Part shown: positions 30,454 through 35,111 of the stretch, in pieces
Layout: each line of letters starts with the position of its first letter
How positions within the stretch are numbered: the stretch's first letter is position 1
Source of the DNA: Cenarchaeum sp. SB0675_bin_21
GTDB lineage: Archaea > Thermoproteota > Nitrososphaeria > Nitrososphaerales > Nitrosopumilaceae
Direction of reading: 5' to 3'
Assembly (NCBI GenBank): GCA_009843815.1
Contig: VYCS01000021.1
Location: 1 to 40,741, forward strand
DNA length: 40,741 nt
Notes under the pieces: generated by a model
Seen by the model: only the letters and a program-made list of their open reading frames with translations
Told to the model about the DNA's origin: nothing
Database searches by the model: none
Made by a program: the position numbers and the translations under genes

Positions 30454-30724
30454 ACTGTCTCTTTAGTGTGTCCGATAATAGTGCCGATATAAAACCATCA
30501 AATTCATCATCAGAAAAATCCACATAATCAATGAACTCCTCCTTTGATGCACACTTCAAGTGATAGCATTGTACATTGGGGTTGTAATAGTATGCAGGAC
30601 AAGAGCAGTAATTAAAAGATGGGGCCATCCAATGCTCGGCCTCCTTGCCAATCATGGTCCATATGCATCTGCCACTGGGCATAAATCGATGCACCTTGAC
30701 CCTTCCGTTAGATGTACTCTTCAT
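30431..30724 (-). CDS. SWIM zinc-finger protein
   Basis: 97 residues with a SWIM finger (Cys-x-Cys ... Cys-x-His): NYCSCPAYYYNPNVQCYHLK. SWIM motifs bind zinc and are found in DNA-binding or protein-binding contexts; no further domain is seen. The N-terminal 35 residues (GRVKVHRFMPSGRCIWTMIG) look like the strand that often precedes SWIM. The ATG overlaps the carB stop by 4 bases (ATGA), so it is the third gene of the carA-carB operon, an association whose meaning is unclear. Confidence 0.75.
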   Translation of the reverse strand: MKSTSNGRVKVHRFMPSGRCIWTMIGKEAEHWMAPSFNYCSCPAYYYNPNVQCYHLKCASKEEFIDYVDFSDDEFDGFISALLSDTLKRQSTSLPDV

Positions 30725-33700
30725 GTTTTATTATCTGTAGGTGGTATAAGATATGGTTGTATGGGATAGCGGGTTGTCTTGTTTGTCTTCATCCATTCGA
30801 GTGTATTTACAAAGGCGTCTGCCAGCTCTATGGTGGTCAGGACAGGTATCCCCAGCTCCAATGCCTTGCGCCGTATCTGATACTCGTCCTCAAGCATACC
30901 GATGTACTTTTCTAGTGTGGATGTACTGGGAATATTGATTATAAAGTCTATCTTCCGGTTGTATAACATGTCGGCGATATTTGGCTTTCTATTTGGCTCA
31001 GATATTTTATGGACTACTTTGATGGCGCCTAGTCTCTCCTCAAAGAACTCTGCAGTATGTTCGGTGGCCAATATATTAAAGCCCAATTCATGTAGTTTGG
31101 CCACACTAGGTAGTAGTTTCTCTTTGTTTCGTATGCCGCCTACAGTTACCAGCGCCGTGCCATGAGACGGCAAGTTGTAGCCTACCGCCGTCAGCCCCTT
31201 GGATAATGCATCATAAAAACTCTGTCCAAAACATGCCGCCTCACCAGTAGAGTGCATCTCCACACCCAATGTCAAATCGGCACCCTCTAACTGCATAAAA
31301 GAGAACTGCGGCACCTTTATGCCAAAGTTGGGTATACCTCTCCAATGATCAATGGGTACTTTGGGTAGTTTCATACCTAGTATGGACATGGAAGCCAGTG
31401 ATATCATGTTTATGCCCACAAGTTTTGATACAAACGGCATGGACCGTGATGCGCGTATATTCAGCTCTATAACATACACCTCATTATCATGTATTAAGAA
31501 CTGTAGATTGAACGGCCCCCTTATACGAAATGTACGGGCTATCTTGATGGTGTACTCAGTTATGGTCTCTATGGTCTTGTTGTTCAGTCGCCATGGCGGT
31601 ATGGACATCATGGCATCGCCAGAGTGAACCCCGGCGCTGTCTATATGTTCTACTATGGCGCCAATTATAACATCGGTACCATCAGATACGCCATCCACAT
31701 CCACCTCCAGTGAGTCTAACATGAACTTTGATATCACCACCGGATGGTTTGGCGAGAGGTTTGTGGCTTTGCGTGTGTAGGTGCGCAGCTCATCATCGGA
31801 CCAGACCACCTTCATGGCGGCGCCTGAGAGTACATAAGATGGTCTTACCAGTACAGGGAATCCCACCTCCCGGGCAAAGGAGCGAGCTTCGGGTAACTGG
31901 GAGAATGCTCGCCATTGAGGCTGACGAATGTGTAATTTATCTAAAGCTGCGCTGAACTTTGAGCGGTCTTCTGCGCGGTCCACATCTGACGCAAGCGTCC
32001 CTAGTATGGGAACCCCGCCCAGAGCCAAGGCCGGTGTAAGATTGTTGGCGGTCTGACCTCCTACACATGTAACTACCCCCCGGGGCTGCTCAAACTCAAT
32101 TATATCCATTATGCGCTCAAATGTAAGCTCCTCAAAGTATAACCTCTCGCATATATCATAGTCGGTGGAGACAGTCTCAGGATTGCAGTTTACCACCGAG
32201 ACGGGCATCTTGCCGTGTTCCCGAATGCCCCAGACCATATTGACCGTTCCCCAGTCAAACTCCACACTACTCCCTATTCTGTATGGCCCAGCCCCAATGA
32301 CCATTATGCCTCTACCATCATCGTTGGGTGTGGCTATATCGTGAGTCTCTCCTCCATATGTCATGTATAGATAGTTTGTGGCAGCAGGCCATTCGGCCGC
32401 CAACGAGTCTATCTGTTTGAGACTGGGCAGTATGCCCATCTCTTTGCGCATACTGCGTACTTGCGCATCTGTCTTCTGCCACGCTCTGCCAATCTGTACA
32501 TCCGAAAAACCAGCAGCTTTGGCCTCCCGCAATATACTGGTATCTTTTGATGATGCCATGGATGTCTGAACCTGCACAATATGTCGTATCTTTTCTATAA
32601 ACCACGGGTCTATGGCTGAAAGTTTTGTTATTCTCCTTGTACTGAATCCTGCCATGATGGCTGTCACAACATGATACAGTATGCTATCATCAAGATGGAC
32701 AAGTCTGTCTTCAAGCTCTTCCTCTGTATACTCTTTAGTTGCAAACCTGTTCAGCACCAGACCATCCATGCCTATATCCAACATGCGTATGGCCTTTTGA
32801 AGGGACTCTTCAAATGTACGCCCAATTCCCATGACCTCCCCGACAGACTTCATGGTGGGGCCTAATCTACGCTCTACCATGTCAAATTTGGCAAAGTCCC
32901 ATCTGGGATGTTTACATACTATATAATCCAATGACGGCTCAAAACATGCAGTAGTCTTTTTGGTTATTGTGTTTGTCAACTCGTGCAGTCCATATCCCAA
33001 GCCTATCTTGGCAGACATGTACGCCAACGGGTACCCGGTAGCTTTGCTGGCAAGGGCTGATGAGCGAGAAAGTCTGGGATTTACCTCTATGGCCACATAC
33101 TTTTCAGAGTCTGGACTCAGAGCAAACTGTATGTTACACTCGCCCACTATGCCTATGTGCTTGGTGGCCCGGAGTCCTGCAGATCTTAGTATGTGATACT
33201 CTCGGTTTGTCAATGTCTGTGAGGGTGCAACAACTATGTTGTCGCCTGTATGTACCTTCATGGATAGCACATTCTCCATATTGCATACAATGACACCATT
33301 GTCTTCTGCATCCCGCATTATCTCATATTCGATCTGCTTCCATGCTCCAATGTACTCCTCTATCAGAACCTGCCCAACCATACTGGCCTTGAGGCCTCTC
33401 TCTACAATCTCGTGCAGGTCCAGTTCGTTATATGCAACACCGCCACCCTTGCCCCCTAGAGTATATGCTACTCGGACTATTACCGGAAAGCCTAACCTTT
33501 GGGCTGTCTTTTTGGCATCCTCAAAGTTGGTTACTGTATCACTTGGCAGTACCGGTACGTCGCAGTCCACCATGGCATCCTTGAAGAGTTGTCTATCTTC
33601 GGTCATCTGTATACCTTCTATCTTGGTACCCAACACTTCAACACCATACTTTTTTAGCGTGTCACTTTGAGCCAGACTTACGCCACAGTTTAGCGCAGTC

Positions 33701-34000
33701 TGTCCACCGTATGAGAGCATTATTGCATCAGGACGCTCTTCTTCAATAACAGATTTGACATAGTCTGGCGTAACTGGTAAGAGGTACACCTTATCGGCAA
33801 AGCGTGTGTCGGTTTGGATGGTGGCAACGTTGGGGTTTATGAGTATGCTATGAAGCCCATCTTCCCTTATGGCTTTGAGGCATTGGCTGCCGGAGTAGTC
33901 GAACTGGCGGTCGATTTTGGCGACTTTCGCCGGCTTCTCCGATCTTTATTGCCCCACTACCAAGTACCAGTATATTCCTTAATGTCTCACGTCTAGGCAG
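30721..34000 (-). CDS. carB: Carbamoyl phosphate synthase large subunit, interrupted by a 22-base insert
   Basis: Makes carbamoyl phosphate from bicarbonate, ATP and glutamine-derived ammonia for arginine and pyrimidines. Both ATP-grasp halves, the oligomerisation domain and the C-terminal MGS-like domain are present. The N-terminal block is split: PRRETLRNILVLGSGAIKIG EAGE is coded from 34000 to 33926, then 22 bases intervene, and FDYSGSQCLKAIREDG continues from 33903. Removing the insert gives 1085 aa, the usual size; unspliced reading stops near 33850. A start inside (33789) would lose the first ~60 residues with the nucleotide-binding glycine loop. The Met position of the family is coded by CTG (34000), overlapping the carA stop; there is no ATG, GTG or TTG nearby in frame. 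Confidence 0.85.
33904..33925 (-). other. Candidate 22-base BHB mini-intron in carB
   Basis: Read on the minus strand, the upstream exon ends GGCG-AA, the insert is A-GTCG-CCAAAAT-CGAC-CGCC-AG, and the downstream exon starts T-TCGAC. GGCG pairs with CGCC (central 4-bp helix), GTCG with CGAC (inner helix, 7-base loop), and the bulges are AAA and AGT, three bases each. Cutting after the second base of each bulge, as the archaeal splicing endonuclease does, removes exactly these 22 bases and restores the CarB frame. The outer helix is not contiguous: CGGAG (33941-33937) can pair with CTCCG (33895-33891) only across an internal loop. Confidence 0.6.
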
Positions 34001-35111
34001 GCCGGGGGTCCTCCATCATACTCTGCAACTCCTTGAAGATAAATTCACAATCGTACGGCCCTGGCGATGCTTCAGGGTGAAACTGCACAGCAATGCATGG
34101 CCGAGTCTTGTGTCTTATACCTTCAACGGTACCATCATCGGTATTGGTAAACCATAAATCAAACTCCGAATCCGCCAAGGATTCGGGACTAATAGCATAG
34201 CCATGGTTCTGACTGGTTACGTGAACCTGGCCTGTGGATACATCAAGACATGACTTGTTCTGACCTCGGTGCCCATACTTTAGTTTGTAGGTCTTTGCAT
34301 TGCCAGCCAGGCTTATGATTTGTGCCCCCAAACATATTCCCAACATCGGTATGTCCTCATCTAGTATTTTACGTGCAGCATGTATGGTGTCTGGACAATG
34401 AATTGGGTCCCCGGGCCCATTACTGATAATTACGCCTGCAGGATCGTACGAGAGTATGTCTGATACTTTTGTATTATATGGAACCTTTACTGCACGATAG
34501 CCTAGATTTACAACGTGGCGCAGAATTGCATTCTTCGCACCCGTATCTACAACTACCACGTTGCGACCTGAACCAAACGTCAAATGTTTCCTGGTAGATA
34601 CATCATCTACTAGATGTTCTGAGTTATACTGGGGAGCATCTGGCAGTTGCTCTTTTAGTATGTCTGTATCTATGGGGTGCTCTGAGACCTTTAGGGCGGC
34701 CATGCGCACGCCATCTTCGCGTAGGGATTTTGTGAGGTGTCTTGTATCTATTCCAGATATGCCTGGTATGTTGTTTTTGTAGAGCCATTCATCTAAAGTC
34801 ATAGATAGATTCCAATGACTGGCAACTTTGGTTAACTCGTGTATGACAAGACCACGTACCTGTATACTGTCAGATTCAAAGTTCAATGGTATTCCTGAAT
34901 CATCAGTCACTGCGGGGTCGGGGACGCCATAATTTCCCACCAAAGGATATGTTATGGATAAGATTTGGCCTTTGTATGAGGGATCTGTCAGTGTCTCGAT
35001 ATACCCCACCATTCCTGTGTTGAATACGGCCTCACCGAACACCGTCTTTGGGTACCCAAAACCCTCTCCCTCAAGAACAACCCCATCATCTAGAACTAAT
35101 GCTGCAAACAT
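33993..35111 (-). CDS. carA: Carbamoyl phosphate synthase small (glutaminase) subunit
   Basis: Releases ammonia from glutamine and passes it to CarB. The N-terminal small-subunit domain begins AALVLDDGVVLEGEGFGYPK and includes the conserved DPSYKGQILSITYPLVGNYG. The class I glutaminase domain holds SNGPGDPIHCP, the nucleophile in PMLGICLGAQIISLAGN and the His-Glu pair in AVQFHPEASPGPYD. 372 aa, complete and without interruption. The TATA-like TTTAAAATAG at ~35136-35145 lies ~29 bases before the ATG. First gene of the carA-carB-SWIM operon. Confidence 0.97.
   Translation of the reverse strand: MFAALVLDDGVVLEGEGFGYPKTVFGEAVFNTGMVGYIETLTDPSYKGQILSITYPLVGNYGVPDPAVTDDSGIPLNFESDSIQVRGLVIHELTKVASHWNLSMTLDEWLYKNNIPGISGIDTRHLTKSLREDGVRMAALKVSEHPIDTDILKEQLPDAPQYNSEHLVDDVSTRKHLTFGSGRNVVVVDTGAKNAILRHVVNLGYRAVKVPYNTKVSDILSYDPAGVIISNGPGDPIHCPDTIHAARKILDEDIPMLGICLGAQIISLAGNAKTYKLKYGHRGQNKSCLDVSTGQVHVTSQNHGYAISPESLADSEFDLWFTNTDDGTVEGIRHKTRPCIAVQFHPEASPGPYDCEFIFKELQSMMEDPRPA

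Follow-up and report, generated by a model that had tools for sequence, protein, structure and literature searches.

The closest described system is the crenarchaeal cbf5 gene, whose frame is disrupted by a BHB intron (Watanabe 2002; Yoshinari 2006; Yokobori 2009, PMC2738675). PMC7714728 names it as the sole BHB intron reported for archaeal mRNA apart from its own 5'UTR case, a BHB element of Haloferax HVO_1309 that the splicing endonuclease cuts. According to PMC2738675, cbf5 was the one gene with confirmed splicing, though other introns were predicted, and the cbf5 genes of Cenarchaeum and Nitrosopumilus have no intron. The first-pass annotation of the DNA studied here had stated that archaeal mRNA introns of this type are very few, with cbf5 as the classic case.

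The carB gene described below resembles cbf5 in that a BHB or BHB-like intron appears to disrupt the frame of an archaeal protein gene, in that the host has a two-subunit splicing endonuclease, and in its patchy distribution with losses. It differs in being another gene in another class, with inserts of 20-26 nt, rarely up to 40; moreover, splicing was shown on RNA for cbf5, whereas for carB it was not. Like HVO_1309, carB has a BHB in an mRNA; however, the HVO_1309 element is in an untranslated region, whereas that of carB lies inside coding sequence and the reading frame depends on it. Archaeal tRNA BHB introns share with carB the 4-bp central helix, the two 3-nt bulges, the inner hairpin, and similar sizes, but the carB intron is in an mRNA, its exon strands also encode protein, and its outer helix lies beyond an internal loop. 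The bypass elements byp and gene 60 are also short hairpin inserts in an ORF; unlike these, the carB insert has no matching take-off and landing codons and does have exon-insert pairing. We found no report of a carB intron in the literature searched, with subscription papers and preprints outside the search.

A Frame-Breaking Insert in carB

The window (the whole stretch of 40,741 nucleotides that was analysed) is part of a 1.61-Mb assembly of an ammonia-oxidizing-type archaeon, fragmented into 48 contigs (G000, contig C30). The carB gene directly follows carA on the minus strand, and its product is 93% identical to CarB of Cenarchaeum sp. SB0662 (L036). The locus contains:

33993..35111 (-): carA, encoding the CPSase small subunit; ends with TAG at 33995-33993, giving an 8-nt overlap with the start of carB
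34010..34014 (-): Shine-Dalgarno-like GGAGG, 9 nt before the CTG
33926..34000 (-): carB exon 1; runs from a presumed start, CTG 34000-33998, through GAA and encodes (M)PRRETLRNILVLGSGAIKIGEAGE
33904..33925 (-): putative 22-nt BHB mini-intron AGTCGCCAAAATCGACCGCCAG, supported by the frame break, same-codon inserts in relatives, and the BHB fold
30721..33903 (-): carB exon 2, FDYSGSQ... to the stop; the sole full-length CPSase large-subunit gene in the genome

Exon 1 ends with ...GGAGAAGCCGGCGAA at 33926 and exon 2 begins with TTCGACTACTCCGG at 33903. When 33925-33904 are skipped, the frame is restored and the protein reads ...AIKIGEAGE/FDYSGSQCLK... (slashes mark junctions and cuts throughout); it is colinear with residues 1-198 of E. 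coli CarB, aligned end to end. The unspliced frame runs into a TAG at 33850-33848. The first-pass annotation had claimed both a 22-base frame-breaking insert at 33904-33925 in the carB N-terminus, whose omission restores GEAGE/FDYSGSQ, and a read-through stop near 33850, and both claims held. The boundary is ambiguous by 1 nt; a shift of -1 gives GAG TTC, still Glu-Phe. The tryptic peptide IGEAGEFDYSGSQCLK crosses the junction and is encoded only by the spliced mRNA. Automatic ORF calling puts the carB start at GTG 33789, inside exon 2. A second full-length CPSase large-subunit gene, i.e., another carB, was absent from the assembly contigs searched.

Two further contigs of this assembly (L172, G000:C4, and L184, G000:C16) contain long near-identical stretches with the same tRNA/gene neighbourhood, probably reflecting redundancy or strain variation in the assembly.

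The Insert in Related Genomes

In profile searches of related genomes, many carB matches began exactly at FDYSGSQ or held one in-frame TAA there. Comparison of carB at this codon, as the first-pass annotation had suggested, yielded 209 classified loci: 84 without an insert and 125 with one at exactly this junction. Some of these loci are repeat fetches of one genome; the distinct insert sequences number 56. Nine lengths between 20 and 40 nt occur, namely 20 (13 loci), 21 (69), 22 (32), 23 (2), 25, 26 (5), 30, 33, and 40 nt. The 33-nt insert belongs to L296 (genome G111), and the cultured strain Ca. Nitrosotenuis chungbukensis MY2 (L082) also bears an insert. Insert-bearing loci come from two orders of a single class, with eight families represented. 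Counted by genome handle, there are 43 insert-bearing genomes in the window's family and 14 out of 15 in family f8, with single insert-bearing genomes in f3, f5, f10, f11, f12, and f20, the last belonging to the other order of the same class. All classified insert-bearing loci give junctions of the GEAGE/FDYSGSQ type, and the intronless relatives are precise empty sites.

In-frame translation of the insert was rejected. Every insert divisible by three contains an in-frame stop (71/71) and the other lengths shift the frame, so no insert can be read through.

A sequencing or assembly error, or a frameshift pseudogene, might be suspected given the fragmented assembly. However, the same codon carries an insert in all 125 loci, which come from many independent assemblies including single-contig genomes, and the remainder of carB is intact and is the only copy in the genome. 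This explanation can be regarded as practically ruled out. An assembly error and a second intact carB, which the first-pass annotation had named as possible refutations, are both excluded by the recurrence in independent assemblies and by the genome search.

In the single-contig genome G003 (2,045,086 bp), the carB gene (G003:C1:720657-723754) has a 22-nt insert and a further break near profile position 690. Genome G054 has two carB genes, one bacterial-like without an insert and one archaeal-type with an in-frame TAA (L013 and G054:C49:7368-10556); this TAA likely belongs to the intron.

Predicted BHB Fold

The predicted fold of the window intron and its flanks has the following parts:

33928..33931 (-): central helix, exon strand GGCG; pairs with CGCC, with covariation
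33906..33909 (-): central helix, intron strand CGCC; pairs with GGCG, with covariation
33925..33927 (-): 5' bulge AA/A, predicted cut between 33926 and 33925; geometry kept in 56 unique sequences
33910..33924 (-): inner hairpin GTCG-CCAAAAT-CGAC with 7-nt loop; the covarying helix 3
33903..33905 (-): 3' bulge AG/T, predicted cut between 33904 and 33903, from sequence geometry
33937..33941 (-): distal outer helix P2, 5' strand CGGAG in exon 1; conserved pairing
33891..33895 (-): distal outer helix P2, 3' strand CTCCG in exon 2; conserved pairing
33950..33955 (-): proposed second exonic helix P1, 5' strand GGGGCA; pairing in intron-bearing genes
33877..33882 (-): proposed second exonic helix P1, 3' strand TGCCTC; pairing in intron-bearing genes

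Predicted cuts after the second base of each bulge remove exactly 22 nt. The helices GGCG:CGCC and GTCG:CGAC, the 7-base loop, the bulges AAA and AGT, and the cuts removing 22 bases had all been claimed beforehand, and all held in the window sequence.

A BHB core with 4 central and at least 4 inner base pairs, at a 22-nt spacing, occurs by chance at 4.8e-4 of genome positions, and one exactly at the needed junction is expected about once in 2,000. The core together with the 5-bp distal outer helix occurs 17 times in 3.2 million, the outer helix having been defined afterwards. The comparative data on the carB insert are far stronger than this single-site figure. When nearly all of the 1.61 Mb was scanned for other frame-restoring BHB cores, 3,128 cores and 936 loosely frame-restoring placements were obtained; the descriptor is unspecific, and the scan demonstrates neither that the carB intron is the only one in this genome nor that there are others. 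The top placement inspected was an operon boundary (secY-adk-like).

With RNAfold, 51 of 86 sequences had the complete BHB core in their minimum-energy fold. The isolated window RNA was not among the folds supporting it: its minimum-energy structure is a competing hairpin (GGCGA:UCGCC), with the BHB at -13.2 versus -18.0 kcal/mol. P2 is set off from the bulges by a 5/7-nt internal loop, and the element is not a strict hBHBh' motif. Relaxed BHB motifs are cut by broad-specificity enzymes (PMC6379350), and the unfavourable naked-RNA energies and the non-contiguous outer helix argue for a relaxed BHB recognised by such an enzyme. Energy folding alone is not decisive here; misplaced stretches of L017 and L023 were excluded from this evidence. 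Rfam covariance models gave no match up to E = 1 in 33750-34100, and a search of a plasmid collection gave no match.

Covariation and Constraint on Silent Sites

The predicted consensus consists of exon GGCG, bulge AR/A, inner helix, loop, intron CGYC, bulge NN/T, and exon. All four central positions are paired in 51 of the 56 unique no-loop sequences, and at least four inner positions are paired in all of them. Covariation was assessed in 32 distinct representatives with 500 shuffles. The number of cells changed on both sides of a pair was 36, versus 11.8 in the shuffles, and the covariation was 0.282, versus 0.158, a value as high being reached in 0/500 shuffles. Helix 3, the inner helix, changed on both sides in four of its five pairs; its variants include GUCG:CGAC, GUCAC:GUGAC, GCCG:CGGC, GCUGG:CCAGC, and GUUAG:CUAAC. 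Sliding the partner by 1-3 columns lowered pairing from 95% to 22-60%. In one family (L159), the exon-intron helix GGCG:CGCC is changed to GGTG:CACC, a silent Gly-codon change that is matched within the intron.

The exonic helices were compared with intronless genes encoding the same peptide. P2 (CGGAG:CUCCG) is formed in 74/75 intron-bearing versus 12/62 intronless genes, and P1 (GGGGCA:UGCCUC) is fully formed in 51/75 versus 3/62; Fisher p-values for both ignore relatedness. The outer helix pairing only across an internal loop had been flagged as the weak point of the BHB interpretation; this holds as geometry, yet P2 is a conserved feature. Contrasts on starred branches of the tree provide four independent pairs, too few for significance, and none contradicts the link between intron and P2. 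The paired silent sites of the exons are fixed in intron-bearing genes (Gly-2 GGC 75/75, Asp+1 GAC 75/75, Tyr+2 TAC 75/75, Gly-5 GGA 73/75), whereas the third positions of Glu-1, in the bulge, and Phe0, unpaired beside the bulge, vary freely. In the intronless genes, silent positions vary at all of those codons. This pattern is the expected sign of selection on an RNA fold inside coding sequence.

Ribosomes might instead hop over the insert, in the manner of the programmed bypassing described for T4 gene 60 and mitochondrial byp elements, with the peptidyl-tRNA leaving at GAR and landing just before TTY. In favour of this, the insert is a short, untranslated stretch that can form a hairpin, interrupts a conserved ORF, and in some cases contains an early stop. 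For such a hop, however, the triplet at the landing site has to match the take-off codon. The last triplets of the inserts are CAA, TAA, CAG, AAA, CAT, AAT, AAG, and TAG, and never GAA or GAG. Bypassing also leaves unexplained the 4-bp exon-insert pairing between two 3-nt bulges and the fixed silent positions far out in the exons. We consider it very unlikely because the landing triplet never matches GAR.

Alternatively, exon 1 could be a relic, with CarB translated only from a start inside exon 2 (e.g., GTG at 33789) and the insert in untranslated RNA. The start chosen by automatic ORF calling fits this, and ATG, GTG, and TTG are missing from the exon-1 frame of the window. Among the 88 intron-bearing sequences with a frame closed upstream, 44 likewise have none of these codons in the needed region. 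However, differences per site at the three codon positions of exon 1 are 0.281/0.144/0.555 in intron-bearing and 0.271/0.119/0.556 in intronless genes, i.e., amino acids are kept while silent sites vary, and exon 1 encodes the first strand and the glycine motif of the E. coli-type N-terminus. With codon positions that evolve as in translated DNA, exon 1 is also very unlikely to go unread.

Splicing Machinery

A BHB intron calls for a splicing endonuclease and a ligase, and genes for both are present. The genome encodes two PF01974 splicing-endonuclease proteins. One has a His/Lys catalytic region (HAPYLVH and RKQF) and matches A. pernix EndA (3p1z_B) at 4.7e-43, the alignment extending through its KPR loop; the other is without those catalytic residues. 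From sequence alone, we infer a catalytic and a structural subunit in an (alpha-beta)2 arrangement, which is associated with broad specificity (PMC6379350). An RtcB ligase gene is also present, and ARAGORN predicted introns of 16-32 nt in the tRNA-Tyr, -Thr, -Ser, and -Leu genes.

Distribution of the Probable Intron and the carB Start

At least nine changes of insert state are required on the CarB protein tree (mean of 43 when shuffled), with at least four changes forced by starred branches. Within the window's family, basal lineages carry the insert, and genes without it form clusters among Nitrosopumilus and Nitrosopelagicus. The tree pattern and the deep insert-bearing families suggest that the intron is ancient in this class of archaea, has been passed down with the gene, and has been lost precisely and more than once; we regard this as likely, but the carB tree alone cannot separate gain from loss. 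An intronless carB, L089, falls within a group of intron-bearing Nitrosotenuis-like genes; it still has the SD-like sequence and has no canonical start, and it looks like a recent intron loss.

The window has CTG at the start position; intron-bearing relatives without a canonical start have CTG, CTA, TCG, GCG, TTT, or ATA there (e.g., L118, L082, L296-L301, L306, L308). The overlap of intron-bearing carB with carA is usually 14 nt (58 distinct junctions) or 8 nt (8), and an SD-like sequence is present in 88/92 intron-bearing versus 12/67 intronless genes. For these start traits, too, the independent tree contrasts are too few (four starred pairs).

In Nitrososphaera-like genomes (L296-L299, L301), carA has a Lys/Ala-rich C-terminal tail that ends in VAKR or similar and overlaps carB. 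The tail looks linker-like, and a CarA-CarB fusion by +1 frameshifting is conceivable. In L149 (G057), carA ends in a TAG directly in frame before TCG CCA CGG..., and carB has no canonical start; read-through or a non-AUG start may be at work.

The intron might be retained as a regulated splicing switch on CarB synthesis, the entry point to pyrimidines and arginine, perhaps tied to the carA-carB overlap or start site. Its retention in eight families, the stop or frame break in every unspliced form, and its association with the SD-like sequence, non-canonical starts, and the 14-nt overlap speak for this. However, several clean losses in free-living relatives show the intron to be dispensable, and we consider a switch unlikely. 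More probably, CarB synthesis simply needs the splicing step, an inference that leaves a regulatory role unproven. A bolder, speculative reading joins these observations: most such archaea may start carB at a non-AUG codon (CTG, even GCG, TCG, or TTT) set by a strong SD-like sequence in the fixed 8- or 14-nt carA overlap, or by a CarA-CarB frameshift fusion or RNA editing; the BHB mini-intron would then be spliced, and the two linked events would jointly control the opening step in making pyrimidines and arginine.

Discussion

What is shown for carB is that an insert breaks the frame at a conserved position, that the BHB fold covaries, that helices in the exons limit the choice of silent codons, and that genes for the enzymes are present. 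That carB carries a 22-nt splicing-endonuclease (BHB) mini-intron is very likely, because the insert recurs at the same position in eight families with variable length and always with a frame break or stop, and because of the compensatory pairing (including exon-intron pairing), the silent-site fixation, the machinery, and the empty sites. The mini-intron proposed in the first-pass annotation is thus supported by comparative tests; splicing itself is inferred, without RNA or peptide data. In the proposed mechanism, exon and intron would pair as GGCG:CGCC in the carA-carB transcript, the two-subunit endonuclease would cut after the second base of each bulge (GGCGAA/AGUC and GCCAG/UUCG), and RtcB would ligate the exons. 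Without splicing the frame closes at 33848, so that only the joined mRNA would encode the complete CarB.

Archaeal mRNA splicing so far rested on cbf5 and one 5'UTR (PMC7714728, 2020). With splicing inferred, carB is likely the second archaeal protein gene known to us with a conserved BHB intron, in a new gene and a new class. Conserved in many relatives and obligatory for an essential metabolic gene, it would mean that the tRNA-splicing machinery has kept an mRNA substrate across a class of environmentally dominant archaea. CarB is probably misannotated, as truncated or frameshifted, across that class. The gene is also an example of how pairing with an intron can hold silent codons fixed, and its intron-bearing and intronless sister genomes offer a simple system for studying how and why archaeal mRNA introns persist.
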